From NCBI RefSeq assembly GCF_900177615.1, contig NZ_FXAP01000004.1, forward strand, positions 372,001 to 436,000: DNA of 64,000 bases, given 5' to 3'. The notes below the pieces were generated by a model, which was not told the DNA's origin, ran no database searches, and worked only from the letters and a program-made list of their open reading frames with translations. Positions within the stretch are counted from its first letter, which is position 1, and every line of letters starts with the position of its first letter. The stretch is from Plantibacter flavus. GTDB lineage: Bacteria; Actinomycetota; Actinomycetes; Actinomycetales; Microbacteriaceae. Made by a program: the position numbers and the translations under genes. This document shows, piece after piece, positions 11,927 to 37,683 of the stretch.

Positions 11927-11949
11927 GGCGGTGCCCGGGCCTCCCCGGC

Positions 11950-13085
11950 CGCCGAGCAGCCCCGGTCACCGAGCCGACCCCTGCCGGTCACCGAGCCGCC
12001 CCTCCCGGTCACTGAGCCGCCCCTCCCGGTCACCGAGCCGCCCTCTCCCCGTCACCGAGCAACCCGCACCGGTCACTGAGCCTGTCGAAGTGCCACACAC
12101 CGAAGCCCCCAGACCCACAACGCTCCCCGGGGGCCCTTCGACAAGCTCAGGGAACGAGTACCCCCACCCCGGTCACGCGAGCCAGCCCCGCTCACCGAGC
12201 AACCCGCCCCGGTCACCGAGCAACCCGCACCGGTCACTGAGCTTGTCGAAGTGCCACACCCCGAAGCCTCCCGCCCCGCAACGCTCCCCGGGGGCCCTTC
12301 GACACTTCGACAAGCTCAGTGCGGCGAAGCTCAGGGAACGGACATCCCTCCCCCGGTCACCGATCCGCCCCTCCCGGTCACTGAGCTTGTCGAAGTGCCA
12401 CACACCGAAGCCCCCAGACCCGCGACGTCACCCCGGGGGCCCTTCGACACTTCGACAAGCTCAGTGCGGCGCAGCTCAGGGAACGGACATCCCTCCCCCG
12501 GTCACTGAGCAGACCGCCCCCGGTCACTGAGCCGACCTCTCCCGGTCACTGAGCCGCCCCTCCCGGTCACTGAGCCTGTCGAAGTGCCACACACCGAAGC
12601 CCCCAAACCCGCGACGTCACCCCGGGGGCCCTTCGACACTTCGACAAGCTCAGTGCGGCGCAGCTCAGGGAACGGACATCCCTCCCCCGGTCACTGAGCA
12701 GACCGCCCCCGGTCACTGAGCCGACCTCTCCCGGTCACTGAGCAGACCCCTCCCGGTCACTGAGCCTGTCGAAGTGCCACACCCCGAAGCCTCCCGCCCC
12801 GCAACGCCTCCCCGGGGGCCCTTCGACAAGCTCAGGGAACGGACAGACCTCTCCCGGTCACTGAGCAGACCTCTCCCGGTCACCGATCCGCCCCTCCCGG
12901 TCACTGAGCCGCCCCTCCCGGTCACTGAGCCTGTCGAAGTGCCACACACCGAAGCCCCCAGACCCGCGACGTCACCCCGGGGGCCCTTCGACAAGCTCAG
13001 GGAACGCGTACCCCCACCCCGGTCACGCGAGCCAGCCCCGGTCACCGAGCACGCCGCACCGGTCACTGAGCCTGTCGAAGTGCCA
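11950..13085. repeat. 1.1-kb array of interspersed REP-like repeats, no gene
   Basis: Two interleaved repeat types fill the space between xylB and the oxidoreductase gene. Type 1 is a unit of about 18-20 bases, GGTCACTGAG(C) plus a short spacer, in runs of one to five. Type 2 begins (C)CTGTCGAAGTGCCAC and occurs seven times, starting at 12081, 12242, 12386, 12575, 12765, 12930 and 13071 (spacing 141-190 bp). After most of these comes the inverted partner CCTTCGACAAGCTCAGGGAA, giving fold-back units with a GC-rich centre CCCCGGGGGCCC. Three partners carry a small duplication (CTTCGACACTTCGACAAGC). No reading frame here resembles a protein; frames simply repeat motifs such as VTEPVEVPHTEAP. Confidence 0.95.
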
Positions 13086-14193: not shown

Positions 14194-15306
14194 TCAGGGG
14201 CGGTACTGGGTGGCCAGTGCCGCCCCTGCCGCACGCAGGTGGACGAGCGGTTCGGCCATCGCCGCCTCGACGCCGCCGGCCAGCTCCGTGAGCGAGGCCG
14301 CCGCGAGGAAGATCCCCTCGGTGGGCGCCTGGATCGCTCCGGCCACGAGCATGGTCCGGTCCGCCGCGAGCCCGGCGACCCAGGAGGCGACCTTGCCGTC
14401 GGCCGTCTGGTCGTCGAAACGGCCCTCTCCCGTGATCACGATCGACGCCGCGGCGGCCGCTTCCGGGAGGGCGATCGCCTCACCGACGCCGCGCGCGCCC
14501 GAGGTGGCGGTGGCGCCCCACAGCAGGAGGCCGTAGCCCGCACCGCCCGCAGCACCGGCACCGGGCTCGACCACTGCGCGTTCCGCATGGTCCCGCCCGA
14601 ACGCCTCCGCAGCGCGGCTCGCGAACCGTGCGAGATTCGCGTCGAGGACGGCGACGTCCACAGTGGTCGCACCCTTCTGCGGACCGAAGACCGCAGCGGC
14701 ACCGCGGTCGCCGAGCAGCGGGTTGGTCACGTCGCTGAGGATGACCGCGCCGTCCGGCGGCAGCGCGCGGAGTCCGGCGGTGTCGATGTCGCGGATCGTC
14801 GCGAGCCCGGCGTTGCCGGTGGCAACCGGTCCCCCGTCGACGTCCACCAGCCGCGCTCCGAGCGCGGTGAGCAGCCCGGCTCCGCCGTCCGTACTGGAGC
14901 TTCCGCCGATCGCGAGCAGCAGTCGTCGCACGCCATGGTCGAGCGCGGCCTCGATGGCCTCACCGAAGCCGACGGTGTGCGCCGCGAACGGTTGCAGGGG
15001 GTCGAGGAGTGTCAGCCCGCTCGTCTGCGCGAGTTCCACGACCGCCGAACCGTCAGGCAGCTCGAGCCACTCGGCGTCCACCGGGTCGCCGACCGGGCCG
15101 GTGACCGTGATCTGGTGCCGACGCGCGCCGGGAACGGCTGCCGCGAACGCGTCGAGCGTGCCCTCGCCGCCGTCAGCCATGGGGAGCGACTGCAGGAGGT
15201 CATCGGGCCGTAGAGTGCGCCACCCGTCGGCGATCGCCTCGGCGACCTCCGCGGCGGTGGCGGTGCCTTTGAACGAGTCGGGTGCGATGACGATGTGCTG
15301 GGTCAT
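14194..15306 (-). CDS. glycerate kinase, GlxK/GarK family
   Basis: Phosphorylates D-glycerate (to 2-phosphoglycerate in the GarK/GlxK family). The 370-residue sequence has the family start IVIAPDSFKGTATAAEVA, the MADGGEGT motif and the GGSSSTDGGAG phosphate-binding loop. In other bacteria this enzyme ends the glucarate/galactarate or glyoxylate route through tartronate semialdehyde. Here it is the last gene of an operon whose regulator is divergent from aldarate-type genes, so a link to sugar-acid breakdown is plausible, although no tartronate semialdehyde reductase or GarL aldolase is in view. Confidence 0.95.
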   Translation of the reverse strand: MTQHIVIAPDSFKGTATAAEVAEAIADGWRTLRPDDLLQSLPMADGGEGTLDAFAAAVPGARRHQITVTGPVGDPVDAEWLELPDGSAVVELAQTSGLTLLDPLQPFAAHTVGFGEAIEAALDHGVRRLLLAIGGSSSTDGGAGLLTALGARLVDVDGGPVATGNAGLATIRDIDTAGLRALPPDGAVILSDVTNPLLGDRGAAAVFGPQKGATTVDVAVLDANLARFASRAAEAFGRDHAERAVVEPGAGAAGGAGYGLLLWGATATSGARGVGEAIALPEAAAAASIVITGEGRFDDQTADGKVASWVAGLAADRTMLVAGAIQAPTEGIFLAAASLTELAGGVEAAMAEPLVHLRAAGAALATQYRP

Positions 15307-15310
15307 GCCT

Positions 15311-16363
15311 TCAGCCTCCCACGGTGGACGGGGTCGGGTGGGTCGAGGGCGCGCTCGTCGTCAGCACCTCGACACCGTCCGGTGTGATCACGACGGTGTC
15401 CTCGACCTTCACGCCGGGGGCGGTCGGATTCCAGGCGAAGGCCTGCCACGGCTGGACGACGTCGGTCGCCTCAGGCATGGCACGCGGATCGCGTCCCGCG
15501 TAACCGGCCGCACCGCCCTGATGGTGCCTCGTCCACTCGTCGGCGTCGAAGCCCTGCTCCGCGTAGGCCGCACTCCCCGTCCGCAGGATGTCGGCGAGCG
15601 AGGCGCCCGGCACGGTGGCGTCGAGATAGGCGTGTTCGACGGCGCGGATGCGCTGCATGTCCGTGGCGAACGGCTCCGCCGGGGTGCCGCCATCGTCGAA
15701 CCACCGCGTGAGGTTCACGATGAGCCCGTCGCGGCGGCCGCAGGCGACGACCATCGCCCGGGAACCGAGTCGCCCCTCGGTCGGCAGCGGGTGCCGGTGG
15801 GCGAGTCTGCCCTCCCCGGCGACGAGGAGGACGAGCGGGTCGATCCCGGCTGCGACGAGGCGCCCGGCGAGGTCGGCCGCGACCGCGCGTTCCGTCCGGG
15901 CAGGGTCGAGCTCGTCGACGAGCGCCTCGACCGCCGACGTCGTCTCCCGACCGAGCGAACGGAAGCGCGCGAGTTCGGCCGGGAGGAGCGACGCACGCGC
16001 CGCCCGCAGCTCGGCGGCGACGTCGGCCTCCTGCAGCACCCCGTCCCCACTCGGCAGCACCGCGTCGATCGGCGTGTGCCACGGCACCGTCCGCACCCGG
16101 ATGTCGGGCAGCTCCTCGGCCTGCAGCCGGTCCACCTCGTTGGAGGTCGCGACGAGCCACGCGTCGCCCGGCGAGACGACGACCGCGACGATCGGGTCGG
16201 CCGCGAGGCTCACGTGGACGCGCGAGCCGTCGAGGTACCAGCCGACCGCGGCGGCGGACCGCAGCACGATCGTGCCTGCTCCGCGGGCCTCCAGGAGCGA
16301 CACCAATCGGGCGTGCTTGCGACGGCGGTCGACCTCGTCCGGCCCGGGCCGCTCGTGGTTCAT
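15311..16363 (-). CDS. M24 (creatinase/aminopeptidase P)-like protein with degenerate metal site
   Basis: Pita-bread-fold family protein of 350 residues. N-terminal creatinase-like half and C-terminal M24-like half are recognisable, but the metal ligands expected of a peptidase are not: the D-x-T-R position reads NLTR, the GHGIG position reads QGGAAGYAGRDP, and only the terminal Glu in VKVEDTVVI is in place. A non-peptidase or non-metal role is therefore likely. The ATG used overlaps the upstream stop as ATGA; an ATG four codons earlier is less likely. It lies four bases before glycerate kinase, inside a sugar operon. Confidence 0.8.
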   Translation of the reverse strand: MNHERPGPDEVDRRRKHARLVSLLEARGAGTIVLRSAAAVGWYLDGSRVHVSLAADPIVAVVVSPGDAWLVATSNEVDRLQAEELPDIRVRTVPWHTPIDAVLPSGDGVLQEADVAAELRAARASLLPAELARFRSLGRETTSAVEALVDELDPARTERAVAADLAGRLVAAGIDPLVLLVAGEGRLAHRHPLPTEGRLGSRAMVVACGRRDGLIVNLTRWFDDGGTPAEPFATDMQRIRAVEHAYLDATVPGASLADILRTGSAAYAEQGFDADEWTRHHQGGAAGYAGRDPRAMPEATDVVQPWQAFAWNPTAPGVKVEDTVVITPDGVEVLTTSAPSTHPTPSTVGG

Positions 16364-17520
16364 CGCCGGGCCCAATCGATCCCGAGCTCGGCGAAGGTGC
16401 TGCCGGTGGCGGCCGCTTCGGCGACGAGCTCCTCGATCCTCGGGATGACCGGGCGGCGCTCGTCGCCCGTCCCGAGCCAGTCGACGAGATCAGCGGGGAT
16501 GCGGTGTGGCGCCGGGGCCGACCGGACCGCGTCGAGGACGGCGGTGAAGGCGGACGCGTCGGCCAGGGAGCTGACGAGTGCGGCATCCTCACCCGCCAGG
16601 ACCGCCTCGCGCGCGCGGAGGAGGTCGGGGAGCAGGTCGGTCCGGCCCGTCGTCCAGCGTCGCAGGGTGACGCCGTCGACGACCACCTCGACCTCGTCGC
16701 GCGTGTAGTGGAACCGGATCGAACCGAGCTCACCGTGGACGGTGACCACCGGGTCGGTCGTCTCCTGTGCGCACAGGGTGAGCGCCGCGGTCATGATCGG
16801 GCCGCGCCGTGGGGTGATGCGGACGACCGAGGTGTCGTCGGCCTCGATGTCGTTCGCCCGGTACTGATCGAGGTCGATGGTGGCGATCCCCGCGCGGTCG
16901 GTCGTGCCGCCAAGCCGGAGCATGGTCTGGACCGCGTGCGCGAACGGGTTGGTGACGACGCCGTCCACGACCGGTGTGCCGTCGAGCGTGCGCCGGCCCG
17001 ACCACGCGGCACGCGTCCAATACCCGACGGTGCGGACCCAGGTGCCCCTCGCCTCGAGTGCCGTCACGGCCCCGATCTCCCCGCTGTCGACGACGTCCGC
17101 GATCTCGCCGATCGCGTGCGACCCGAGGCTCTGGAACCCCACCTGCACGAGCCCGCCGGTCAGGGCGGCGGTGGCCTGCAGCCGATCGAGTTCGTCGTTC
17201 GAGGTCACCGGGGGCTTCTCGAGCAGGACGTCGGCGCCGTGCTCGAGCGCGGCGACGGCGAGGTCCAGGTGCGTGTGGATCGGGGTCGAGAGGATGACGA
17301 TGTCCACCTGCCCGGCGGCGAAGCACTCCTCGAGCGAGTCGCGGAGCGGAGCGTCCCCGGCTGCGCGGTCCTCCTCGGTGAACGTCCGGTCGACGAGGCC
17401 GACGAGGCGGATCGCGCCGGTCGCGGCGAGCGCCCTGGCCGCCGCCACGTGGCTGGCGCCATGGCCGTGGATCCCGACGACCACGACGGTCGGGGCGGTG
17501 GGGTGGTCGGTGCTGGTCAT
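16360..17520 (-). CDS. Gfo/Idh/MocA-family dehydrogenase
   Basis: Predicted NAD(P)-linked sugar oxidoreductase, 386 residues. The nucleotide site is VVVVGIHGHGASH, a His-rich variant of the usual GxGxxG, and the catalytic motif is EKPPVTS. The C-terminal half is the normal family domain. Both ends overlap the neighbouring genes by ATGA, so it is translated together with the upstream LacI-PmoA regulator and the M24-like protein. Substrate unknown. Confidence 0.9.
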   Translation of the reverse strand: MTSTDHPTAPTVVVVGIHGHGASHVAAARALAATGAIRLVGLVDRTFTEEDRAAGDAPLRDSLEECFAAGQVDIVILSTPIHTHLDLAVAALEHGADVLLEKPPVTSNDELDRLQATAALTGGLVQVGFQSLGSHAIGEIADVVDSGEIGAVTALEARGTWVRTVGYWTRAAWSGRRTLDGTPVVDGVVTNPFAHAVQTMLRLGGTTDRAGIATIDLDQYRANDIEADDTSVVRITPRRGPIMTAALTLCAQETTDPVVTVHGELGSIRFHYTRDEVEVVVDGVTLRRWTTGRTDLLPDLLRAREAVLAGEDAALVSSLADASAFTAVLDAVRSAPAPHRIPADLVDWLGTGDERRPVIPRIEELVAEAAATGSTFAELGIDWARR

Positions 17521-19526
17521 GCGTCACTCCCTGTGCTGCGCGGTTCGGTGCGGCGTTCCTCAGCGATGAGGAGCGCGCGGTGGATGGCCTCCGCCTGCTG
17601 CGCGTCCAGAGCGCCGTCGATGACGACCGCCTCCAGACCGGTGACGAGCGGGGTGTCGGCGGTGATGGTGGTGCGGGTGGTGGCGGCGAGCGAGACCCCG
17701 ACACCCGGGTACTCGGCCGCGCGGAGGAACCAGGGGAAGGCGTTCGCTGCGGGCTGTCGGAACAGGACCGTGGTGGGGCGTCGAGCCGGCGTCGGGGCGG
17801 GCTCGGTGGTGTCACCCGCATCCGGGTCGGCACCTCCGTCGGCGTCCAGAACGAAGGCGACCCAGGCCGCACGGGAGCCGTGCGCGGTCGACTCCCCCGG
17901 TCCGTCCGCGCTGAGGACGGACCGGTGGGCGTCCGCGGGCAATCGCCAGAACCATCCGCCGTAGCCGGCACCTTCGCGGCCGTTCGTGGCCGGCGACCCG
18001 ATCGTCGCCGTCGATCCCGTCGTCCGGAGGACGCTGGAGACGGCGACGCGGAGCGCCGACCTCCCGCTCCCGACGCCAGGCACGGCGAACTCCTCGACGA
18101 CCGTCCTGCGCGACTCCCGCAGCTGCGTCGTCCCGTCGCGCCCGATCCAGTCGAGCGACTGACGCAGCACACCGGCGTCCACCTCGGTCTCGGTGACGCG
18201 CTGGACACCGTGGTTGTCGAGCATCGTCGACCCCTGCCCGGCGACGTAGGTGCGACCGCCCCAGTACGAGACGCCGTCGACGTCGGCGACGGCCATCGAG
18301 AGTCCGACATGGTGGGGGTGGTCGTCGGGAGCGGATTCCGTGACGACGGTCCCGTCGAGCGAGGTGACGGGGTGCGCGAACGGTCGCGGGGCGTCGGCCG
18401 GTTCGAGGCCGCTGCCGTCGTGGAGGATGAGGACCTCTCGGTCGCCGAGCCGGGCGGTCAGCTCCGGTGACGTGGGGTGCTGCTCGGTTCCGCGCCAGAC
18501 CGGTGGACTCGCGGCCGGGCGCGCTGCGGTGCTCTCCCGGGCGACGAACCGGGGCCGGAAGACGAGCGGGTGTCCACCCTCCGCGCCGCCGATGGTGTCG
18601 CGCAGTCTGGTCCACGCCTCGGCGCCGAGCTCGCGTCGCGGGACGGACACCGTACTGAGCGCCGGCACCGCGAACGCCGCGAACGGGATGTCGTCGAAGC
18701 CGACCACACTGAGCGCCGAGGGGACGGACACACCGGCGCCGCGGAGCGCCGAGACGAGCCCGAGGGCGACGAGGTCGTTGAAGGCGACCACGGCGGTCGC
18801 GTCGTGCTGCACCACCGTCTCGACGACCGCGGCGCCGTCCACCAGCGCTGACCCGGCCGGCACGATGTCGACGGAGAGGTCGTCGTGGTCCGAGCGCGCG
18901 CGGGCGATGCCGACCCGTCGGAGGCGATCGCCCTGGCTCGCGGTGGGCCCCGCGAGGTACAGGATGCGCCGGTGCCCGAGCGCGTGCAGCTCGGCGAGCA
19001 CCTGCTCCATGCCGCTGGCGTAGTCGATGGACACCGACGGCACGGGCGAGTCGGCGAGCTCGCGGTTGACGAGCACGACCGGGTGGAGTTCGGCGAGCAG
19101 CGCTCGAAGCTCCGGTTCGGCCAGACGGGGTGAGCAGAGGACGATCGCGTCGCAGCGACGACGGGCTTCGCGGGCCGCCGCAGCCTCGTCGGCCGGGTCC
19201 TCCTCGGTGTCGGTCACGAGGACGCGGTAGCCGTCGGCCGCCGCGGCCCGGGTGACCCCGCGCAGGATCTCCTGGAACATCGGGTTCTCGAGGTCGGGCA
19301 CGACGACCCCGATGGTGTTCGTGCGGCCGAGCGACAGGCTTCGGGCCAGCATGCTCGGGCGGTAGCCGAGGGCGTCCACCGCGGCGAGGACGCGGTCGGC
19401 GATCGCCGCGTCGACGGTCGCCTTGCCGTTGAGCACACGTGACACGGTGGCCTTCGAGACGCCCGCCTGCACGGCGACGTCGGAGATCGTCGGTGTCGGT
19501 CCAGCGCTGGGGAACCGGTTGCTCAT
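17517..19526 (-). CDS. LacI-family regulator fused to a PmoA-like (DUF6807) domain
   Basis: A 669-residue fusion, about twice normal LacI length. Residues about 13-60 are a LacI HTH plus hinge (TISDVAVQAGVSKATVSRVLNG); the effector-binding domain follows to about 338 with VVGFDDIPFAAFAVPALSTV. The C-terminal 320 residues are a DUF6807 domain, recognisable by HPVTSLDGTVVTESAPDDHPHH, YWGGRTY, GSPATNGREGAGYGGWFWR and HGSRAAWVAF, all matched in the free-standing homologue at 27344-28354. There is no stop or frameshift at the junction. The domain could sense a sugar or be an enzyme tethered to the repressor. It faces the uronate operon across a 16-bp palindrome that is its probable operator. Confidence 0.93.
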   Translation of the reverse strand: MSNRFPSAGPTPTISDVAVQAGVSKATVSRVLNGKATVDAAIADRVLAAVDALGYRPSMLARSLSLGRTNTIGVVVPDLENPMFQEILRGVTRAAAADGYRVLVTDTEEDPADEAAAAREARRRCDAIVLCSPRLAEPELRALLAELHPVVLVNRELADSPVPSVSIDYASGMEQVLAELHALGHRRILYLAGPTASQGDRLRRVGIARARSDHDDLSVDIVPAGSALVDGAAVVETVVQHDATAVVAFNDLVALGLVSALRGAGVSVPSALSVVGFDDIPFAAFAVPALSTVSVPRRELGAEAWTRLRDTIGGAEGGHPLVFRPRFVARESTAARPAASPPVWRGTEQHPTSPELTARLGDREVLILHDGSGLEPADAPRPFAHPVTSLDGTVVTESAPDDHPHHVGLSMAVADVDGVSYWGGRTYVAGQGSTMLDNHGVQRVTETEVDAGVLRQSLDWIGRDGTTQLRESRRTVVEEFAVPGVGSGRSALRVAVSSVLRTTGSTATIGSPATNGREGAGYGGWFWRLPADAHRSVLSADGPGESTAHGSRAAWVAFVLDADGGADPDAGDTTEPAPTPARRPTTVLFRQPAANAFPWFLRAAEYPGVGVSLAATTRTTITADTPLVTGLEAVVIDGALDAQQAEAIHRALLIAEERRTEPRSTGSDA

Positions 19527-19586: not shown

Positions 19587-19602
19587 GAGAAACCGGTTTC
19601 TC
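19587..19602. promoter_or_regulatory. perfect 16-bp LacI-family operator
   Basis: GAGAAACCGGTTTCTC is perfectly palindromic with the central CG step typical of LacI-family sites. It lies in the 127-bp gap between the lacI-pmoA gene and the uronate operon, nine bases from TATAGG (19573-19578), which could serve as a -10. It is the best candidate for autoregulation and control of both operons. Confidence 0.75.
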
Positions 19603-19653: not shown

Positions 19654-20622
19654 ATGCGCATCATCGTCACCGGCGGCGCAGGACGACTCGGGCGGAGCGT
19701 CGCGAGCGCCCTCGCCGAAGCAGGCCACGAGGTCGTCTCCGTCGATCGGACCGACCCCGGACTGCCCGGCGTCGAGGGCCGGACCGCCGACCTCCTCGAC
19801 CACGACGCCACCCACGAGCTCTTCGCCACCCTGCGGCCCGACGCCGTCGTGCACCTGGCGGCGATCGCCGTGCCCTTCAGCGCGCCGGAGCACGTCATCC
19901 TGTCCACCAACCAGACGCTCGCCTTCACCGCCCTCACCGCCGGGATCGCCGCCGGGGCGACCAGGCTGCTGGCCGCGAGCAGCCCGACCGTCATCGGCTA
20001 CGGCGCCCCGCACGGGTGGACGCCCGAGGCGCTCCCCATCACCGAGGAGCACCGGGTTGCCCCGTGGAACGCCTACGCACTGTCGAAGGTCGCGATCGAG
20101 TCGACGGTCGCGATGCTCGCCCGAGCCCACGGCGACACCGTCGTCACCGGCGCGTTCCGGCCGTGCTTCGTCGTCTCCCCGGAGGAATGGGAGGGGGCGC
20201 CGACGCAGCAGGGGCACACCATCGTCGACCGGCTCGCCGATCCCGCACTCGCCGCCGTCTCGCTCTACAACTACGTCGACGCGCGTGACGCCGGCCGGTT
20301 CGTCGCCGCCTGGATCGATCGTGCGGACGCCCGGCACTCCGGTGAGGTGTACTTCGTCGGCGCCGACGACGCCCTGGCCCTCGCTCCCTTGTCCACCCTG
20401 CTGCCCGCGCACGTACCGAGCACCGCCGGATTCGCCGACGGACTCATCGATCGAGCCGCCGCCTTCAGCAGTGCGAAGGCTACCGCCCACCTCGGGTGGC
20501 GCCCGGAGCACGACTGGCGGTCCGCGCTCAGCCCCGCCGAGGCGGCCCGGCTCACCGATCTACTCGCCGCCGACAGCGGCCGGCCGGCCACCACTCCAGC
20601 CCCAGCCCCAGCCCCACGATGA
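19654..20622 (+). CDS. NAD-dependent epimerase/dehydratase, probable uronate dehydrogenase
   Basis: Extended short-chain dehydrogenase, 322 residues, with TGGAGRLG at the N-terminus and the Y141-x-x-x-K145 catalytic pair (YALSK). Uronate dehydrogenases share this size and fold and oxidise galacturonate or glucuronate to the aldaro-lactone; the gene order with kdgD and a semialdehyde dehydrogenase supports that job, but sugar epimerase activity cannot be excluded. ATG chosen because AGAGAGGA is five to six bases upstream; the open frame further upstream crosses the operator and is not coding. The C-terminus is a short Pro/Ala tail. Confidence 0.85.
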   Translation: MRIIVTGGAGRLGRSVASALAEAGHEVVSVDRTDPGLPGVEGRTADLLDHDATHELFATLRPDAVVHLAAIAVPFSAPEHVILSTNQTLAFTALTAGIAAGATRLLAASSPTVIGYGAPHGWTPEALPITEEHRVAPWNAYALSKVAIESTVAMLARAHGDTVVTGAFRPCFVVSPEEWEGAPTQQGHTIVDRLADPALAAVSLYNYVDARDAGRFVAAWIDRADARHSGEVYFVGADDALALAPLSTLLPAHVPSTAGFADGLIDRAAAFSSAKATAHLGWRPEHDWRSALSPAEAARLTDLLAADSGRPATTPAPAPAPR

Positions 20623-20636
20623 CGAGGACCTCCACC

Positions 20637-21578
20637 ATGCCAGCACCACTCGCCTTCGACGGCGTCCTGTACTTCCCGATCACCCCCTTCGACGCCGCAG
20701 GCGAGGTCGACCTGGGGCTCCTCGGCACCCACCTCGAGTCGCGACTCGAACACCGGCCAGGTGGGGTGTTCCCCGCCTGCGGCACCGGCGAGCTGCACGC
20801 GATGTCGCCGTCGGAGGCCGCCCGCGTCGTCCGGCGCACCGTCGAGGTCGTCGACGGCGCCGTCCCGGTCATCGGCGGCGCCGGCGGGGGCGTGGCGACC
20901 GCCAAGGAACTCGCCGTGGCAGCCGAAGAGGCGGGGGCCGACGCGATCCTGCTCATGCCGCCGTACCTCGTCTCCGGGCCGGCAGCCGGTCTGCAGGCGT
21001 ACGTCGAGGACGTCCTCTCGGCGACGAGCCTCCCGGCGATCGTCTACCACCGGAACAACGCCCGGTACACGACGGCGACGATGCGCCACCTCGCGCGCAA
21101 CCCCCAGGTCGTCGGTTTCAAGGACGGCGTCGGCGACGTCGCGGCCGCCCAGGACATCGTGCTGGCGGTGCACGAGGAGGGACGCTGCGACTTCGCCTTC
21201 TTCAACGGCCTCCTCACCGCCGAGCTCACGCAGGCCGCCTACCGCGGCATCGGCATCCCGCTCTACTCCTCGGCCGTCTTCGCCATGCTGCCCGAGCTCG
21301 CGACGCTGTTCTACCGCGCGTACACCGAGCACGACGAACCGCTGCGCGAGCGCCTGCTCCGCGATTTCTACCGGCCGCTGGTCGCCCTCCGCGACGAGAC
21401 CCCCGGCTTCGCCGTGTCGCTCATCAAGGCCGGCGTCCGGCTCGGCGGTCTGCCGGTCGGTTCCGTGCGGTCGCCCTTCGTCGATCCGACCCCCGAGCAG
21501 ACCGACCGCCTGGACGCACTCCTCGCGACCGGCGCCGACCTCGTCGCCGAGCACGCGACCCTGGCCGCAGGGCGTTGA
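20637..21578 (+). CDS. kdgD: 5-dehydro-4-deoxyglucarate dehydratase-like protein
   Basis: Class I aldolase-fold enzyme of the DapA superfamily, 313 residues, predicted to dehydrate and decarboxylate 5-keto-4-deoxyglucarate to 2-oxoglutarate semialdehyde. KdgD hallmarks are YFPITPFDAAGEVD, FPACGTGE, LLMPPYL, IVYHRNN (Tyr137) and VVGFKDGVGD with Schiff-base Lys162. The ATG used has GAGGA eight bases before it; another ATG 18 bases upstream overlaps the previous stop but lacks a ribosome site. Second gene of the uronate-type operon. Confidence 0.9.
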   Translation: MPAPLAFDGVLYFPITPFDAAGEVDLGLLGTHLESRLEHRPGGVFPACGTGELHAMSPSEAARVVRRTVEVVDGAVPVIGGAGGGVATAKELAVAAEEAGADAILLMPPYLVSGPAAGLQAYVEDVLSATSLPAIVYHRNNARYTTATMRHLARNPQVVGFKDGVGDVAAAQDIVLAVHEEGRCDFAFFNGLLTAELTQAAYRGIGIPLYSSAVFAMLPELATLFYRAYTEHDEPLRERLLRDFYRPLVALRDETPGFAVSLIKAGVRLGGLPVGSVRSPFVDPTPEQTDRLDALLATGADLVAEHATLAAGR

Positions 21579-21580
21579 CG

Positions 21581-22675
21581 ATGCCCGGGATCGCCTCCAT
21601 CACCACCTCGCTCGGCCGATTCGCCATGCCGCGCCCCTGGGTGCCCGAGGCGCCGTGGCTCCATCTCATCCGCGTGGACGTCGTCGACGACGAGGGCGCG
21701 ACCGGCTCGGGCTTCACCTGGACACCGACGATCGGAGCCACGGCCGTCCGGGCGCTGCTCGACGACGACATCACGGCCGCCGCCCTCGGAGCGACGACCG
21801 ACCCCGAAACGCTCTGGCCGCGGCTGTGGGCGCATCTGCACGAGGCCGGTGGTGGCGGGATCACCACGATCGCGCTCGCCGGGCTCGACACCGCGCTCTG
21901 GGACCTCCGCGGGCGACGGGCCGGTCTCGGGCTCGCCGACCTCCTCGGCCGTCGACGCGACACGGTCCGGGCGTACGGCAGTGGCGTGAACCTCCACCTC
22001 GACGCCGCCTCGCTCGCCGCGCAGGTCGAGCGGTGGATCGCGGCGGGCTACGACGCCGTCAAGATCAAGGTCGGCAAGCCCGACCTCGCCGAGGACGTCG
22101 ACCGCGTGACGATGGTGCGCGAACTGCTCGGACCGGACCGCCGGCTCATGATCGACGCGAACCAGCGCTGGGACGTCGACCAAGCGGTCTCGTCCCTGGA
22201 ACGGCTCGGCGTCGTCGACCCGGCCTGGATCGAGGAGCCGCTGCGCTCGGACGACACCGCGGGGTACGAACGGCTGCGTCAGGCGACCGACCTCCCGATC
22301 GCACTGGGCGAGAACGTGCACACGATCCACCGGTTCCGCGACCTCGTCGACCGTGGCGTCGCCGACGTCCTGCAACCGAACGTGGTCCGCGTCGGCGGCA
22401 TCACCCCCTTCCTCGCGATCGCCGCGCTCGTCGACGACGCCGGACTCACGCTCGCGCCGCACCTGCTCCCCGACCTCTCCGGGCAGCTCGCCCTCGCCCT
22501 CCCGCAGCTCACCGAGGTCGAGGACGTCGAGGATGCGGGCTTCGTCGCGATCGGCGCCATCGACCCGCCCGGGCCGGTCACCATCGCGGCGGGCCTGGTG
22601 CAGGTCGAGCAGCGACCGGGCCTCGGCTTCGTCATCCGCGACCGGATCGCCGAGACCGCTGCCGTCGGGCGCTGA
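21581..22675 (+). CDS. enolase-superfamily acid-sugar dehydratase, mandelate racemase subgroup
   Basis: Predicted to dehydrate an aldarate or aldonate, supplying the keto-deoxy acid used by KdgD. The 364-residue barrel has the base motif K161-I-K163, metal ligands D192 (DANQRW), E218 (IEEPL) and E244 (GENVH), and His294 in APHLLP. The Asp expected as partner of that His in the mandelate racemase group reads Asn267 (LQPNVVRVGG), which is unusual. The start follows the kdgD stop by two bases. Closest recognisable roles are galactarate, talarate or glucarate dehydratase; the exact one cannot be read from sequence. Confidence 0.87.
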   Translation: MPGIASITTSLGRFAMPRPWVPEAPWLHLIRVDVVDDEGATGSGFTWTPTIGATAVRALLDDDITAAALGATTDPETLWPRLWAHLHEAGGGGITTIALAGLDTALWDLRGRRAGLGLADLLGRRRDTVRAYGSGVNLHLDAASLAAQVERWIAAGYDAVKIKVGKPDLAEDVDRVTMVRELLGPDRRLMIDANQRWDVDQAVSSLERLGVVDPAWIEEPLRSDDTAGYERLRQATDLPIALGENVHTIHRFRDLVDRGVADVLQPNVVRVGGITPFLAIAALVDDAGLTLAPHLLPDLSGQLALALPQLTEVEDVEDAGFVAIGAIDPPGPVTIAAGLVQVEQRPGLGFVIRDRIAETAAVGR

Positions 22676-22756: not shown

Positions 22757-24382
22757 ATGCACGACACCGACCACAGCACCGGCACGATCGACCGCACCGA
22801 GGCCGACTTGCAGGGCGCCACCGCCAGGACCGCCGGCCCCGACGCCGGCAGCGGCAGCGGCAGCGGCAGCGGACGCACCGGAAGCTCGGCCGCCAGCGCC
22901 GCGGGAACCGCAGCCATCACCTCCGACGCGGGCCGTGCCGCCGTTCCGACCGTCGACGAGGTCGCCGCGGCAGCAGCCGCGTCCTCCTCCGAGCTCGCAT
23001 CCACCGCGCCCTGGACCCGCGCCGCCTGGCTCGAGGCCGCCGCCGACGCACTCGACGCCCGGGTCGACGAGCTCGTCGCACTCGCCGACGAGGAGTCCCA
23101 CCTCGGGACCGCGCGCCTCACGGGCGAGGTCGCGCGGACGACGGGCCAGCTGCGGCTGTTCGCCGCCGTCCTCCGCGACGGCGCATTCCTCGAAGTCGTC
23201 ATCGACCACGCCGACGCCTCCGCCACCCCGCCCAAGCCGGAGCTGCGACGGATGCTCCGGCCGACGGGGCCGGTCGCGGTCTTCAGTGCCTCGAACTTCC
23301 CGTTCGCGTTCTCGGTCGCCGGCGGCGACACGGCGTCGGCGCTGGCTGCCGGGTGCCCGGTCATCGTGAAGGCGCACTCCGGCCACCCGCGACTCTCCCG
23401 GCTGACCGCGGCGATCGTCACCGAGGCGTTGCGCTCGGCCGGAGCCCCGGACGGCACCTTCGCGCTCGTCGAGGGTCGTGAGCAGGGCACCGCCCTCGTG
23501 CAGCACCCGGCGATCACCGCGGTCGGGTTCACGGGCTCGCTCGCCGGCGGGCGCGCACTGTTCGACCTGGCGTCGCAGCGGCCGGCCCCGATCCCCTTCT
23601 ACGGCGAGCTCGGCAGCACGAATCCGGTCGTCATCACCGAGGCCGCGCTGCAGGGTGAGGCGGCGGGTGACCTCGCTCGCGGGCTGGCGGCATCCTTCAC
23701 GCTCGGCGTGGGGCAGTTCTGCACGAACCCCGGCCTGGTCCTCGTGCCGAGCGGCAGCGGGTTCGCCGAGCTCGTCGCGCAGGCCGCGGCGGACACCGTC
23801 GCCGGGCGCATGCTGACGCCGGGCATCGCCCAGGCCTATGCCGCGGGTACCGCTCGCGCCGCCGGCCATCCCGGGGTGCGGACGCTCCTCGGCGGCGAGA
23901 CGGCGGCTGCGGATTCCGGCGTTCCGACCGTCCTCGCGACCACCGCCGCGACAGTGCTCGACGCCCCCGAGGTCCTGCTCGAGGAGATCTTCGGGCCGGC
24001 GACGCTCGTCATCGAGGTCGCGGACGACGCCGAGCTGCTCGCGGTCCTGGCCGAGGTCGGTGGCGCGCTCACCGCGACCGTGCACGCGGCGCCCGGTGAG
24101 GACATCGCCGGTCTCGTGTCGCGGCTCGAGCCGATCGCCGGCCGGGTGCTCTTCGGCGGCTGGCCGACGGGTGTCGCTGTGGGTTGGGCGCAGCACCATG
24201 GCGGACCGTGGCCGGCGACGACCTCGCTCCACACCTCGGTGGGTGCGTCGGCGGTGCGCCGCTTCCAGCGTCCGATCGTCTACCAGGACGCACCCGAGCG
24301 TGCGCTCCCCGAGGCCCTGCACGAGGCGAACCCGCTCCGTCTCCCCCGCCGCGTCGACGGCGTCCTGGAGCTCCCCGCCTGA
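22757..24382 (+). CDS. aldehyde dehydrogenase, probable 2-oxoglutarate semialdehyde dehydrogenase
   Basis: Oxidises 2-oxoglutarate semialdehyde to 2-oxoglutarate with NAD(P)+, the last step of oxidative uronate, aldarate or pentose routes. Catalytic C322 lies in GQFCTNPG and E284 in GELGSTNP, the pattern of this ALDH subgroup; SASNFPFAFSVAGGDTASALAAGCPV is also diagnostic. At 541 residues it is slightly long because of a low-complexity Gly/Ser/Ala insert at residues about 26-53. It follows the dehydratase gene by 81 bp and closes the operon; a palindromic element lies beyond its stop. Confidence 0.92.
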   Translation: MHDTDHSTGTIDRTEADLQGATARTAGPDAGSGSGSGSGRTGSSAASAAGTAAITSDAGRAAVPTVDEVAAAAAASSSELASTAPWTRAAWLEAAADALDARVDELVALADEESHLGTARLTGEVARTTGQLRLFAAVLRDGAFLEVVIDHADASATPPKPELRRMLRPTGPVAVFSASNFPFAFSVAGGDTASALAAGCPVIVKAHSGHPRLSRLTAAIVTEALRSAGAPDGTFALVEGREQGTALVQHPAITAVGFTGSLAGGRALFDLASQRPAPIPFYGELGSTNPVVITEAALQGEAAGDLARGLAASFTLGVGQFCTNPGLVLVPSGSGFAELVAQAAADTVAGRMLTPGIAQAYAAGTARAAGHPGVRTLLGGETAAADSGVPTVLATTAATVLDAPEVLLEEIFGPATLVIEVADDAELLAVLAEVGGALTATVHAAPGEDIAGLVSRLEPIAGRVLFGGWPTGVAVGWAQHHGGPWPATTSLHTSVGASAVRRFQRPIVYQDAPERALPEALHEANPLRLPRRVDGVLELPA

Positions 24383-24501: not shown

Positions 24502-25989
24502 TCAGGCGAGGGCGGCGGCGAGCCAGGCGCGCAGCTCGGCCTGCATCGGTACGGACCAGCTGTGCGGTTCGTCGTGGAAGGTGCCCGTGTAGGCCGAGCG
24601 CTCGGCACCGATCCGGTACCGCTCGGCGAGGATCGCGTGGGCATCGCGCATCCCGGCCGGCTCGAAGAGTTCGTCGCGCTCGGCGTACTGGACGAGCAGC
24701 GGCAGCCCGGGGCGCAGGGAGGCGAGCTCCGGCCAGTCGCCGACCCGCGACAGTCCCGGTGAGAGGAACGACCACGAGTGCTGATCGGCGTGCCCGTCGA
24801 GCACCCCGTCGAACGTCGACATCATCGCGACCACGCCCGCAGCACGGATCCGGTCGTCCATGGCAGAGAGCAGGACGGCCCGGGCACCGCCACCGGAGAG
24901 GCCGAAGCACGCGACGGCTCCGGAACGGACCCCGGGCGCGGCCGCCAGCTGGTCGAGCGCGATGAGGTCGTCGCGGAGGACGAGACCGGCGAGCGAGGTG
25001 CCCAGGACGCCCAGCTCTTTCGCGAGCTGCGGCTCGTTGGCCGCCGCGAGGAGCTCGGACCGCTGCCCGGGCGACACCACCGCGACCTCCATTCCGCGTC
25101 GGATCGACTCAGCCCGACGGCCGGCGAGCTGCAGGTCGACGGTCCGATGGAAGCGTTCGGCGACGGCCTCGTCCGGGATCCGCCGGGATCCCCACCCGAA
25201 CGCATCGTGCACGAGCACGGCGAACCCGTCGCGCGCGAGGTCGGACGCGACGGCGCGGCCTCCGTAGTAGCGGTCGCGGAACGCCTGCAGCTCCTCGCAC
25301 GAGACGGACGTCGTGGCGGGCACGCCATCGGGCCCGTCCGCGAGTTTCTCCCGCCCGACGCGCGTGAACCCACCGTGGTCGTGCAGGGCCAGCGCACCCG
25401 GGAGCACGCCCGTCTCGCCGGCCGGCCGCAACAGCCACGCCGACGTCGGCGCACCGAAACCGGTCGACCAGCGGAGTCCGACCCCGTCGACGCCGTCACG
25501 GGTCCAGCTGCCGAGCTCCTCGGGCGGCTCGGGCGGCGCCGGTCGTGGGAAGAGACCGAGGACCTCGGCGAGGCGCGTTCGCGTGGCGTCGAGCGACCAG
25601 TCTGCGGCACTGACGCCCCGGATCGACTCCCGGAACCGGGCGGCGAGCGCCCGCAGACCGGGGTCGCGCGCAGGTGGAGGTATGACCGGTCGGGACCGCA
25701 CCTCGACGGGCTCGGTGACCGCGACATGGTCCACGACCGGGACGTGGCCGGCGACCGGGACGCCGACCGATACGGGACCATCCCGCAAGGCAGCATCCGG
25801 GACCGGGACCGACCCTGTCCGGGACCGGACCTCGACAGGCTCGGCGACCGGGACAGACTCGGCGACCGGAACAGACTCAGCGGCCGGAACAGACTCGGTG
25901 ATCTGGGCGGGCTCGGTCATCGGCTCAGCGGCCGAGGTCGACCCGACGTCCGGGTCGGCGCCGGCGCCGGCCTCCGAGCCGCTGCTCAC
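24502..25989 (-). CDS. alpha/beta hydrolase (dienelactone hydrolase/acetyl-esterase-like)
   Basis: Predicted serine esterase. The C-terminal 380 residues form the hydrolase domain with nucleophile motif GLSGGG, candidate acid in YAERDELFEP and His in FHDEPHSW; HDHGGFTRVG is the probable oxyanion region. I start at the GTG overlapping the dehydrogenase stop (GTGA); an ATG 23 codons in is possible. The first 100 residues are low complexity, and much of that (about 25691-25900) is translated interspersed repeat giving repeats of VAESVPVAEPVEVRSR. It is the last gene of the second ABC operon; a role in removing acyl groups from an imported glycoside is inferred. Confidence 0.82.
   Translation of the reverse strand: MSSGSEAGAGADPDVGSTSAAEPMTEPAQITESVPAAESVPVAESVPVAEPVEVRSRTGSVPVPDAALRDGPVSVGVPVAGHVPVVDHVAVTEPVEVRSRPVIPPPARDPGLRALAARFRESIRGVSAADWSLDATRTRLAEVLGLFPRPAPPEPPEELGSWTRDGVDGVGLRWSTGFGAPTSAWLLRPAGETGVLPGALALHDHGGFTRVGREKLADGPDGVPATTSVSCEELQAFRDRYYGGRAVASDLARDGFAVLVHDAFGWGSRRIPDEAVAERFHRTVDLQLAGRRAESIRRGMEVAVVSPGQRSELLAAANEPQLAKELGVLGTSLAGLVLRDDLIALDQLAAAPGVRSGAVACFGLSGGGARAVLLSAMDDRIRAAGVVAMMSTFDGVLDGHADQHSWSFLSPGLSRVGDWPELASLRPGLPLLVQYAERDELFEPAGMRDAHAILAERYRIGAERSAYTGTFHDEPHSWSVPMQAELRAWLAAALA
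25691..25900. repeat. interspersed repeat units inside the hydrolase gene
   Basis: On the minus strand, units such as GTCGCCGAGCCTGTCGAGG and GTCACCGAGCCCGTCGAGG match the intergenic array at 11.95-13.09 kb, here kept in frame and read as VAEPVEVRSR and VTEPVEVRSR, with shorter GTTCCGGTCGCCGAGTCT units between them. Confidence 0.7.
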
Positions 25990-27347
25990 GGCGCGATCGT
26001 CGCGACCGGACGCCCGGTCAGCAGCGACTCGTTCCCGGCGATGCCCACCGAGATCGCCCGCACGCCGTCGTCGTAGCCGGCGGGCCGTCCCAGTTCGTCC
26101 TCGGTGACGCGGTCGAAGAGGTGCCGCAGCAGGAACGCGTCGCCGCCGCCGTGTCCGCCGACGCCCTCGGGGATCTCGACCTCCCGGGCCTCCTCCCAGT
26201 GGCGTTGCAGCACGAGGCGTTCCCCGCGCGAGCGGACCGGTGCGGCGGAGGCAGCGCCGTCGGCGGTCTCGCCGTCGCCGCTCAGGCTCGGGTCGAGGAC
26301 GACGCGCCCGTCGGCCCCCACGAGCACGGCGGCGCGCTCCACGACCTCGAGCTCGACCCGGCCCTCCGTCCCGTTGACGGCGACGCGATACCCCTCCCAC
26401 GGCGCGTGGGCGTTCAGGGAGTAGCTGAGCGAGGCGCCGCCGTCGTACGCGACGAGGACGGACAGGTTGTCCTCGATGTCGATCCCGGGCGAGAAGACGT
26501 CGCGGTCGCGCAGGTACCCGTCGTGCTGCTCCGCCCGCAGGTAGAGCGACTCGAGCCGCGGGTCGTCACGCAGGTCGAGGGCGAACGGGTCGTTCGAGCG
26601 CCCGCGAGCCGCCGCCTCGGCGTCGTCCGGCACCGATCCACGCCCTGGACGCGCCGCGAGCCCGCGCTCGGCCGCGTTGGCATCACCGTAGAAGCGGAGG
26701 CCTCCGGTGGCGTAGACGGAGGCCGGCCGCGCACCGATCCACCAGTTGACGAGGTCGAAGTGGTGCGACGCCTTGTGGATGAGGAGCCCGCCGGAGTGCT
26801 CCTTCTCGCGGTGCCAGCGGCGGAAGTAGTCGGCGCCGTGCACGGTGTCGAGCACCCACTCGAAGTGCACGCTCGTCACCCGTCCGATCCCACCGTCCTG
26901 CACGATGCGGCGCAGCTCCGAGTTCCGCGGGCTGTAGCGGTAGTTGAAGGTCGTCACGACGTTCCGGCCACTCTCGGCGACGGCCGCCGCGATGCGCTCG
27001 ACGCCCTCGCGATCGATGGTGAGCGGCTTCTCGACGACGACGTCGGCGCCTGCGAGGAGCGCGCGCGAGACGATCTCGGCGTGCGTGAAGTCGGGGGTCG
27101 TCACGATCACCCGGTCCACGCGTTCCTCGGCGATGAGCCGCTCGACGTCGTCCGGGCCGTACCGAGCCGGCAGCGGGACCCCCTGCTCGGCGAGGACCGC
27201 CTCGTAGTGGTCGAGCCGGCCGGGGTTGCTGTCGCTCCAGGCGACGAGCTCGGCGACGTCGGCGTGCGGGCCGGCGATGGCGTCGAGGTACATCTGCGAG
27301 CGGTGTCCGGTGCCGATGAGGGCGTAGCGTTCGCGGGTCGTGGTCAT
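25986..27347 (-). CDS. Gfo/Idh/MocA-family dehydrogenase, long form
   Basis: Predicted NAD(P)-dependent glycoside or sugar oxidoreductase, 453 residues, some 70 longer than usual because of a loop (residues about 215-265) rich in charged residues. Rossmann motif YALIGTGHRSQMY, catalytic EKPLTIDREG, NYRYSPRN and the HKASHHFDLVNWWIG segment of this subfamily are visible. It overlaps the PmoA-like gene by ATGA upstream and the hydrolase by GTGA downstream. Proteins with this N-terminus often occur in rhamnose, rhamnogalacturonan or glycoside loci; that is background, not proof. Confidence 0.9.
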   Translation of the reverse strand: MTTTRERYALIGTGHRSQMYLDAIAGPHADVAELVAWSDSNPGRLDHYEAVLAEQGVPLPARYGPDDVERLIAEERVDRVIVTTPDFTHAEIVSRALLAGADVVVEKPLTIDREGVERIAAAVAESGRNVVTTFNYRYSPRNSELRRIVQDGGIGRVTSVHFEWVLDTVHGADYFRRWHREKEHSGGLLIHKASHHFDLVNWWIGARPASVYATGGLRFYGDANAAERGLAARPGRGSVPDDAEAAARGRSNDPFALDLRDDPRLESLYLRAEQHDGYLRDRDVFSPGIDIEDNLSVLVAYDGGASLSYSLNAHAPWEGYRVAVNGTEGRVELEVVERAAVLVGADGRVVLDPSLSGDGETADGAASAAPVRSRGERLVLQRHWEEAREVEIPEGVGGHGGGDAFLLRHLFDRVTEDELGRPAGYDDGVRAISVGIAGNESLLTGRPVATIAP

Positions 27348-28354
27348 GCGTGTGGGTCCTTCCGGGTCGGTGCGGCGGGCGCTATTGTGGGCGCGCTGTC
27401 GTGGTGATCGGCACGGCCAGAACGCGACCGTTCGAGCGCGTCTCGACCGGATGCGGCGAGCGCAGCGGCCCGGCCGTCCCCGGCTGCACCGTCGGCGACG
27501 ACGACGGCGTAGCGGAACTCGAGGGTCTCGTCGACTCCGAAGGGCAGTTCCTCGCTGAAGAACGGCGCCGGGCAGAGGCCGGCGAACTCCTCGGTGCGCG
27601 CGAACCACTGCGGCGGGTGCGCGGGGTTCCGCAGGTCGTCGACGATGACGATGCTCGACGCCGCGGCCGTTCCGTCGTGGAGGCCGGTGAAGCCCATCCA
27701 CGCGTGGCGGGTGCCGCGGAACTCCTCGCCGCCGCTCCCGTCGGGGGTGTGCAGGGTGCCGCCGGTGAAGGATCGCGGGCCGCGCCAGAAGAGCCCGCCG
27801 TAGCCGGCGTTCTCCCGCCCCTTCGTCGTGGGCGACCCGATCGACAGGTCCCGGCCGGAGACGTTGCGCATCCGGGTCTCGAAGGTCAGCGTCCAGTCGC
27901 CGGCGGCCGGTCGCACCGTGAGCGCGCGCTCCTCGTCGACGAGGTGCCGACCGTCCTCCGCGGTCCACGCGAGCGTATGCGCGAACCGCACCTCGTCCGG
28001 GTCGGCGCGGAGGTCCGTGACGGCGACGTGTTCGGAGCGGCCGTTGTTCGCGAGTTGTTCGTAGGCGGTCCCGGTGAAGGTCGGGCCGCCCCAGAAGTTG
28101 TCGTCGCCGACGTGCGGGAGGGCCCAGGCGATCCCGGTGTGCCAGACGTGGTCGTGCGGTCTGGCCAGCGTCACGAGCGCGCCACCTGCCGTGCGCACCG
28201 GATGGAGGTACGGCTTCGGCGATTCGCGCTGGACCGTGTCCGGTCGGTAGGTGTACCGCAGGATGGCGATCCCGTCGAGGTGCACGGTGATGGCCGAACC
28301 GACCTCGTGCGTCAGCGCGAGACCGGTCGGACGGGGGCGGTGGTCGGTGGTCAC
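27344..28354 (-). CDS. PmoA-like protein (DUF6807)
   Basis: A 336-residue free-standing DUF6807 protein, predicted cytosolic beta-sandwich without signal peptide. Family motifs are KPYLHPVRT, PHDHVWHTG with several His, NFWGGPTF, GSPTTKGRENAGYGGLFWRG and GTRHAWMGF. The family name comes from a supposed methane-oxygenase link, but its genomic company is nearly always sugar dehydrogenases and transporters, as here. It shares motifs with the C-terminal half of the LacI fusion at 17517-19526. Follows the binding-protein gene by 95 bp containing a hairpin. Confidence 0.88.
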   Translation of the reverse strand: MTTDHRPRPTGLALTHEVGSAITVHLDGIAILRYTYRPDTVQRESPKPYLHPVRTAGGALVTLARPHDHVWHTGIAWALPHVGDDNFWGGPTFTGTAYEQLANNGRSEHVAVTDLRADPDEVRFAHTLAWTAEDGRHLVDEERALTVRPAAGDWTLTFETRMRNVSGRDLSIGSPTTKGRENAGYGGLFWRGPRSFTGGTLHTPDGSGGEEFRGTRHAWMGFTGLHDGTAAASSIVIVDDLRNPAHPPQWFARTEEFAGLCPAPFFSEELPFGVDETLEFRYAVVVADGAAGDGRAAALAASGRDALERSRSGRADHHDSAPTIAPAAPTRKDPHA

Positions 28355-31999: not shown

Positions 32000-32017
32000 C
32001 CGGTAAACGCTTTCCGG
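32000..32017. promoter_or_regulatory. LacI-family operator O2
   Basis: CCGGTAAACGCTTTCCGG is an imperfect palindrome around CG with one mismatched pair of positions per half; its core AAACGCTTTCC is the reverse complement of the O1 core GGAAAGCGTTT. The pair of sites explains joint control of the divergent operons by the LacI gene that ends the plus-strand operon. Confidence 0.75.
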
Positions 32018-32066
32018 ACGGCCCGAGGCCGCCGGGACCGGAACACGAACCAGAGGAAGAGCCACC

Positions 32067-36795: not shown

Positions 36796-37683
36796 CTACT
36801 CGGCGACGTGCTCCTGGAACCAGGGGGTGTAGGCGGCGACCTTGGTGCGGTGGCCGGCGCCGGCGACCAGTCGCTTGACGTGCTCGCGGACGTTGACCGT
36901 CGCGACACCGATCACCGTGACTCGGTCGAACGGCACGGCGTCGGCGACGAGCACCTCGGCGCGTCGGAGGGCCGCAGGGTCCTCGTCGGTCGCGAATCGC
37001 TGCACCATGCGGTCGGCGGTCATCGCGTTGGCGCCGATGCTCGTGAGCACGTGGGAGGCGTCACCGTCGGCGACCACGACGCGTGCCCGGGAGGGCCGGC
37101 CGGTGTCGGCGTCGAACTCACCCGGGTGCACGGCGGCGCCGTCGATCGTGGTGACGAGCACGACGTAGTCGTTGACCGATGATGCGAACGCCTCGGCGGA
37201 CAGGCGGACGTCGTGCTCGCCCGCGCGGATGCCCGCCCAGAGGTCGGCGTCCGGGGTGAGGAAGAACGGGACGAAGTCGGCCGGCGTGAGGTCGTCGGTG
37301 CCGGCGAGCACCATCGTGCGTCGCGCCTCGCGGTGGCTCGCAGCGGCGATGTCGACGACCGGCCCGTCGGGGAGCGCCGGTGACGCCACCGGTAGGATGC
37401 TGCCGGTCTCGAGGATGCGCTCGAGGTTGCGGATGTGGGTGACGTGGTACAGCCGCTGCTCGCCGACGCGCACGACGGGCAGGGCGGCTGCCGCCTTCGT
37501 CACCGTCTTCGTGGTGGCGGCGGTCCGCACGCGGGTCGGGGCCGGCTCGCGGAGCGAGGGAGCGACCGTCGACCGACGGACCTTGGGAGCGGGTGGTTCA
37601 GCGACCGGCACCTCGCGAGGCGGCGGCGGGAAGCAGGTCGCGCAGAGGCCGTTGTCGAAACCGTGTTTGCATTCGTCGCTCAA
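36796..37683 (-). CDS. DarT-like (DUF4433) ADP-ribosyltransferase, no DarG nearby
   Basis: 295 residues. The C-terminal 215 residues match the DarT single-stranded-DNA thymidine ADP-ribosyltransferase fold: LYHVTHIRNLERILETGSIL, FVPFFLTPDADLW and RRAEVLVADAVPFDRVTVIGV, where the Glu of AEVLV aligns with the catalytic Glu. The N-terminus carries a CKHGFDNGLCATCF Cys/His cluster that may bind zinc, then a basic disordered linker. TTG start with GAAGGA six bases upstream. No macrodomain antitoxin (DarG) lies beside it, so toxin, phage-defence or repair roles are open. Confidence 0.75.
   Translation of the reverse strand: MSDECKHGFDNGLCATCFPPPPREVPVAEPPAPKVRRSTVAPSLREPAPTRVRTAATTKTVTKAAAALPVVRVGEQRLYHVTHIRNLERILETGSILPVASPALPDGPVVDIAAASHREARRTMVLAGTDDLTPADFVPFFLTPDADLWAGIRAGEHDVRLSAEAFASSVNDYVVLVTTIDGAAVHPGEFDADTGRPSRARVVVADGDASHVLTSIGANAMTADRMVQRFATDEDPAALRRAEVLVADAVPFDRVTVIGVATVNVREHVKRLVAGAGHRTKVAAYTPWFQEHVAE

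Follow-up and report, generated by a model that had tools for sequence, protein, structure and literature searches.

The 64,000-nucleotide stretch of the Plantibacter flavus genome analyzed here (contig NZ_FXAP01000004.1, positions 372,001 to 436,000; hereafter the window) encodes on its minus strand a complete LacI-type regulator that runs directly into a DUF6807 (PF14100) domain. The sequence confirms the earlier observation and supports its interpretation in part: the likeliest reading, with an even chance, is that this protein is an autoregulated LacI repressor that carries a working carbohydrate enzyme of the pathway under its own control. The gene and its parts are as follows.

17517..19526, minus strand: LacI-DUF6807 fusion gene, 669 amino acids
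19353..19490, minus strand: LacI helix-turn-helix, residues 13-58 (PF00356, 59.6 bits)
18528..19319, minus strand: periplasmic-binding-protein-like effector domain, residues 70-333
18456..18527, minus strand: linker, residues 334-357; W344 invariant in a 58-row alignment, predicted local distance difference test (pLDDT) of the block 57-82
17583..18455, minus strand: DUF6807 (PF14100) domain, residues 358-648, by Pfam match and conserved residues

LacI regulator and DUF6807 domain in one reading frame

The unbroken run from regulator to DUF6807 domain that had been reported in the first-pass annotation is borne out by a minus-strand frame of 669 codons without a stop (17517-19526), in which all the domains were found by Pfam (LacI 13-58, Peripla_BP_3 178-333, DUF6807 358-648). 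With its N-terminal LacI helix-turn-helix and its binding-protein-like effector domain, the protein is a member of the LacI family. The PF14100 match begins beyond residue 340 and scores 176.5 bits against a curated cut-off of 27 (E = 1.1e-51); the domain itself is thus present, but the length of 320 residues originally given for it includes the linker and the tail, and the Pfam domain comprises 291 residues. Because codons 325-374 contain no in-frame ATG, GTG, or TTG, a separate C-terminal product started near the LacI-DUF6807 junction is unlikely, and an internal start was discarded as an explanation. Both halves are under purifying selection in a comparison between Plantibacter genomes. In the full-length structural model (predicted template modeling score [pTM], 0.57), the two halves show no confident packing. 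The LacI repertoire of the host genome appears to be very large: 47 matches to the fusion protein were obtained at E <= 1e-5, including 45 in the LacI half, a number that excludes the fusion itself and the stand-alone DUF6807 protein described below and contains some fragments of one gene.

Distribution and descent of the fusion

The survey of LacI-DUF6807 fusions that had been suggested at the outset revealed both parts in the same frame at 11 of 80 loci (Plantibacter, Demequina, Krasilnikoviella, Paraoerskovia, and Isoptericola) and a LacI-type part together with DUF6807 in 65 of 74 database proteins matching the C-terminal half, with the helix-turn-helix model listed in 62. The protein survey scored the 7,997 candidates with the most shared words, and its Pfam column gives no domain order, which was confirmed for 57 of the 65 by alignment with the protein of the window. 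The remaining nine matches are five Gfo/Idh-DUF6807 proteins, one GH43-DUF6807 protein, two with DUF6807 only, and P0041, a single metagenome protein with possible frame errors in which a sensor, DUF6807, and Gfo/Idh follow one another in one chain. Sources named for these database proteins are, among others, Plantibacter, Demequina, Agromyces, Cellulosimicrobium, Myceligenerans, Isoptericola, Promicromonospora, Cellulomonas, and Microbacterium, and the closest named relatives are from Plantibacter, with identities of 95% (L001) and 96% (P0001); L142 was not treated as independent of L002. A sequencing or assembly artifact at the junction has a practically negligible probability: LacI and DUF6807 do lie in different frames in one Demequina locus (L051), but the junction is open at 11 loci from five genera, and 65 of the 74 proteins have both parts, which rules it out. 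The architecture is already on database record, since many such chains are named "DUF6807 family protein" or "PmoA family protein" by NCBI; a search of the open-access literature found no paper describing the LacI-DUF6807 fusion. In two Microbacterium loci (L020 and L042; M. barkeri and M. halophytorum), lacI and duf6807 are separate neighbors with a stop/start overlap of the form ATGA.

Phylogenetically, the LacI-fused, split, GH43-fused, and triple-fused domains form, together with one DUF6807-only row (P0070), a group of 74 rows in a DUF6807 tree of 111 rows (Shimodaira-Hasegawa-like approximate likelihood ratio test [SH-aLRT], 98), for which every fifth of 120 listed stand-alone proteins (24) and four other rows were sampled. 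Ten Gfo/Idh-DUF6807 rows constitute a second group (support, 93). In a LacI tree of 82 rows, in which about half of the fused rows (34) were included, the fused rows are located in three clades near one another. A single origin of the fusion appears possible; both are quick trees with flagged long branches, and either the split or the fused state may have come first. The free-standing homolog that had been noticed 8 kb away in another sugar operon is indeed present, about 7.8 kb from the fusion, and belongs to the third group of the DUF6807 tree (25 rows; support, 97). The two genes concerned are as follows.

27344..28354, minus strand: stand-alone DUF6807 protein of a different clade (PF14100, 262.5 bits)
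25986..27347, minus strand: Gfo2, Gfo/Idh/MocA dehydrogenase; 4-bp overlap with the end of the stand-alone DUF6807 gene if its start is 27347

In the 4.3-Mb genome, PF14100 has no matches besides the fusion and the stand-alone protein. Their domains share 32% identity over 238 aligned columns and, because of this distance and the different clade, the fused domain is not a recent copy of its neighbor, so that a recent duplication was ruled out. The adjacent region 24502-25989 was scanned as a possible hydrolase, and no Pfam family was found.

Likely operator sites

19587..19602: perfect 16-bp palindrome GAGAAACCGGTTTCTC, likely operator common to the fusion gene and the divergent operon
19509..19524: weaker operator-like site GGGGAACCGGTTGCTC (plus strand), overlapping the start of the fusion's coding sequence

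The perfect 16-bp palindrome that had been proposed as the likely operator was recovered 61-76 bases upstream of the start codon of the fusion. It precedes the divergent gene, which starts at 19654, by 52-67 bases, and its exact sequence occurs only once in the genome. Related sites in other genera support its role as operator. The weaker site has three mismatches to it, and the spacing of 78 bp is retained in L001 and L002. In a scan with the palindrome of the window as the pattern, allowing up to four mismatches (Markov control, 0.013 sites per 600 bp), at least two palindrome-like sites were present in the promoter region of 13 of 15 loci, i.e., the window plus 14 fusion or split loci, with the promoter region of L007, L046, and L050 set before the upstream GH43 gene only after the sites had been seen. 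The spacing amounts to 33-35 bp in Demequina, Krasilnikoviella, Paraoerskovia, and Isoptericola and 78 bp in Plantibacter. A single operator-like site was detected in L042; L020 has none near lacI and a one-mismatch site at 6422, just ahead of the GH43 domain in the gene preceding lacI. When a stricter scan was limited to the lacI vicinity, 6 of 14 loci had a palindrome of this kind. Related sites are also present near unfused LacI relatives, and the motif is therefore, judged from these sequences, a property of this LacI branch and not of the fusion. According to PMC4052901, most LacI-family sites are palindromes of even length centered on CG, and tandem sites are common (spacing peaks at 13, 22, and 32 bp), occurring before about 20% of regulated operons. 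An even palindrome with a central CG lies near both the fusion's own gene and its putative target genes.

Gene neighborhood and the likely sugar pathway

16360..17520, minus strand: Gfo1, Gfo/Idh/MocA dehydrogenase; 4-bp overlap (ATGA) with the stop codon of the fusion
15311..16375, minus strand: M24 peptidase-like protein, recurrent in these clusters
14194..15306, minus strand: glycerate kinase (PF02595)
19654..20622, plus strand: NAD-dependent epimerase/dehydratase-family protein, possible uronate dehydrogenase (PF01370)
20496..21578, plus strand: KdgD-like 5-dehydro-4-deoxyglucarate dehydratase, start codon uncertain
21575..22675, plus strand: enolase-superfamily protein, likely sugar-acid dehydratase (PF13378/PF02746), start codon uncertain
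22757..24382, plus strand: aldehyde dehydrogenase; best NCBIfam match 2,5-dioxovalerate dehydrogenase, far below cut-off

The set of epimerase-family, KdgD-like, enolase-superfamily, and aldehyde dehydrogenase proteins fits the oxidative uronate pathway. Uronate dehydrogenase is among the weak PDB matches of the epimerase-family protein (E about 1e-6). The KdgD-like protein exceeds the cut-off of subfamily NF002958 (382.8 bits; cut-off, 278) and falls below that of the equivalog TIGR03249 (272 versus 374). For the enolase-superfamily protein, L-talarate/galactarate dehydratase was found in the PDB with an E value of 1.4e-47, and the best match is a putative racemase. Uronates as the probable sugar class, an earlier suggestion, agree with this divergent operon and with the genes behind similar sites elsewhere: in L007 and L046 (Krasilnikoviella and Isoptericola), where the fusion comes after a GH43 gene, a site with one or two mismatches is located upstream of pectate lyase/pectinesterase genes, and L050 resembles these loci, a likeness established by sequence alone. 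The divergent neighbor in Demequina is an ATP-binding cassette importer, and no KdgD, enolase, or aldehyde dehydrogenase matches were found in the 18-kb loci of this genus. The use of pectin or uronates is therefore the likely theme of the fusion clusters, with a sugar that may vary. The M24 peptidase-like protein (15311-16375) recurs in L008, L021, L024, L029, L042, and L140, and a peptide substrate is not evident.

Linkage to Gfo/Idh dehydrogenases and identity of the domain

Association with dehydrogenases is, in terms of gene context, the strongest clue to the role of DUF6807. Of the 14 fusion or split loci, 10 have Gfo1 as the next gene downstream. The end of the window's stand-alone DUF6807 gene also coincides with the probable start of a dehydrogenase gene, Gfo2. 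In Microbacteriaceae, PF14100 was detected in 36 of 150 genomes (35 above cut-off), and a Gfo/Idh gene is present within about 1.5 kb in 28 of 31 PF14100 loci, in seven of them in the same frame. These 31 loci, 29 from other genomes plus the two of the window, represent 30 of 46 listed matches plus L082; the two Gfo proteins of the window served as queries (E <= 1e-8; flank of about 1.5 kb), and the home-made DUF6807 profile held one over-long row (P0041), with hits that may extend into LacI or Gfo sequence, and the tally therefore leaves out LacI in the same frame. Seven single-frame Gfo/Idh-DUF6807 fusions, all from Microbacteriaceae, were recorded as L101, L103-L106, L108, and L109. The cluster of L140, from the same genus, contains LacI, Gfo2, Udh, KdgD, enolase, aldehyde dehydrogenase, M24, Gfo1-DUF6807, and glycerate kinase. 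Its LacI is unfused and placed in a different LacI clade, and the Gfo-fused form of DUF6807 likewise represents another clade (the DUF6807 domain of L140 itself is absent from the tree), for which reason the arrangement appears to have arisen independently along similar lines and not by re-fusion. The attachment of DUF6807 to the repressor in some clusters and to the dehydrogenase in others would be expected for a pathway enzyme. Weak PDB matches of Gfo1 include glucuronide-3-dehydrogenase and DgpA. The region 32007-35379 encodes a third Gfo/Idh dehydrogenase (32007-33281) as well as, at 34072-35379, a TIM-barrel protein resembling xylose isomerase; the two may form another sugar oxidation module.

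Within the fused domain, H403, H406 (95%), G408, W422, E471, R473, W527, R528, and R602 match positions that are conserved in the stand-alone proteins, and H405 and H549 correspond to Trp and Arg in the stand-alone clade; the group "oth" of this comparison (nine rows) includes the over-long row P0041. Structure prediction for the homolog suggests a mutarotase-type fold. An identification as a mutarotase by sequence was rejected: alignment by hhalign of three DUF6807 alignments with 22 aldose epimerase family members gave a probability of at most 0.5%, and a DUF6807 profile search of the PDB returned chance matches only. In the Pfam scan (E <= 0.001), neither the fusion nor the stand-alone protein matched PF01263, and no monooxygenase family besides PF14100 was found in either. 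The older database name of the family, PmoA (methane oxygenase), appears misleading here. In PMC10291797, PF14100 is employed as a PmoA model beside PmoB and PmoC, and that study may have tallied sugar-pathway proteins as methane monooxygenase; PMC5342196 describes a PF14100 protein whose gene may share an operon with those of two new beta-galactosidases. The family is large and without known function, and the stand-alone query retrieved 2,700 proteins at E <= 0.001. The proposed "enzyme-regulator hybrid" has indirect backing only, from the conserved polar residues kept in the fused domain, the predicted mutarotase-type fold of the homolog, and the close Gfo/Idh linkage.

Proposed mechanism and alternative readings

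A repressor with an enzyme of its own pathway could operate as follows. In the absence of sugar, the LacI half would occupy GAGAAACCGGTTTCTC, which separates the fusion gene from the divergent uronate operon, and repress the pectin/uronate catabolic cluster as well as its own gene, and a uronate-type sugar in the binding-protein pocket would free it from the DNA. The DUF6807 half would be a mutarotase-fold module, as predicted, that binds and converts a cyclic, possibly keto sugar made or used by Gfo1. Through the fusion, every repressor chain would come with one enzyme domain and both halves would share a promoter, so that induction of the pathway would also bring about synthesis of the enzyme. 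A tentative and improbable extension is a self-metering repressor, whose LacI pocket reads a sugar acid while the DUF6807 site uses up or interconverts either this sugar or the one that follows it. If this were true, flux via the enzyme half would directly set the ligand supply of the repressor, and DUF6807 would be an undescribed family of carbohydrate enzymes acting on Gfo/Idh products in the breakdown of plant cell-wall sugars.

The domain might instead be a second sensor, whose mutarotase-fold pocket would take up a related sugar and thereby shift operator affinity, resulting in a two-ligand repressor. The short linker that joins DUF6807 covalently to the effector domain, with W344 invariant in 58 rows, and the conservation of pocket-type polar residues would suit such a device, but the domain also occurs alone and in single chains with Gfo/Idh or GH43 enzymes, equivalent clusters have unfused LacI relatives that lack DUF6807, and no confident packing between the halves was modeled (pTM, 0.57); we consider a second sensor unlikely. 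Similarly doubtful is a passenger joint, in which ATGA-overlapping lacI and duf6807 genes merged and the halves work as before, with only their co-production fixed. The separate, overlapping genes of M. barkeri and M. halophytorum speak for it, as does purifying selection on both halves; however, the fused state is kept in several genera although an idle link could easily be lost, and the junction has no internal start codon nearby.

An oligomerization module, by which the C-terminal domain would let two repressor dimers hold tandem operators, is very improbable. It draws on the tandem sites found in 12 of 14 fusion or split loci versus 2 of 39 unfused loci, but the search pattern was derived from the fused group, the motif of many unfused relatives differs, and the groups differ by descent. 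Moreover, tandem sites are general in the LacI family according to PMC4052901 (about 20% of regulated operons, 32-bp peak), and such a module would not need conserved polar pocket residues.

The fusions with LacI, Gfo/Idh, and GH43 give DUF6807 a testable place as a carbohydrate enzyme of plant cell-wall sugar pathways that works alongside a Gfo/Idh dehydrogenase. Should the fused domain prove active, a LacI repressor would have an enzyme of the pathway it controls built into it and would be a useful case of metabolic flux coupled to gene control in one chain. The finding also warns against taking PF14100 for methane monooxygenase.

Other features in the window

The intergenic region 11934-13079 is densely filled with short direct repeats, CGGTCACTGAGCC-type units for which a spacing of 22 bp is frequent, and with longer copies of 115 and 189 bp; its open frames look like repeat translations. 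At 56827-60557, genes for an MscS-type channel with a cyclic-nucleotide-binding domain and for a HAMP-adenylate/guanylate cyclase protein, whose Cache match stays below the cut-off, adjoin each other on one strand, possibly a cyclic-nucleotide-gated channel pair. A DarT-like single-stranded DNA ADP-ribosyltransferase is encoded at 36799-37725 (PF14487, 62 bits).

Comparison with known systems

The fusion shares with LacI-family repressors of the AscG, CcpA, RbsR, and GalR/S type the helix-turn-helix, the effector domain, the even palindrome with a central CG, and a likely autoregulation; its best PDB match by sequence is the Escherichia coli LacI-family regulator 3dbi (E = 2.8e-46), and AscG (3brq) matches with an E value of 3.4e-34. 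It differs from them by an extra C-terminal domain of about 290 residues that likely has a catalytic or binding pocket. No sequence or profile similarity of DUF6807 was found to GalM or to further supersandwich proteins (GH36, PL26, and rhamnogalacturonan lyase domains), and catalytic residues could not be matched. The stand-alone DUF6807 proteins have the same Pfam domain with the motifs D-H-x-x-H-x-G and W-G-G, whereas the LacI-fused domain belongs to a clade with the split, GH43-fused, and triple-fused forms and carries H405 and H549 in place of Trp and Arg. In the Gfo/Idh-DUF6807 fusions of Curtobacterium, Enemella, Microbacterium, and Microbispora, the same domain family is found in the frame of a dehydrogenase, in one same-genus genome even within an equivalent gene cluster, but there DUF6807 resides on the dehydrogenase and not on the repressor and forms a separate clade. 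The systems for oxidative glycoside cleavage described in PMC10628242 and PMC9007349 likewise combine a sugar oxidoreductase with a second carbohydrate enzyme: oxidation at C3 is followed by elimination or hydrolysis, e.g., by DUF1080 3-ketoglycoside hydrolases or AtOGE. DUF6807 is not named in the passages concerned, and the analogy is a lead only, by which DUF6807 might be the second-enzyme partner in an oxidative cleavage of glycosides.

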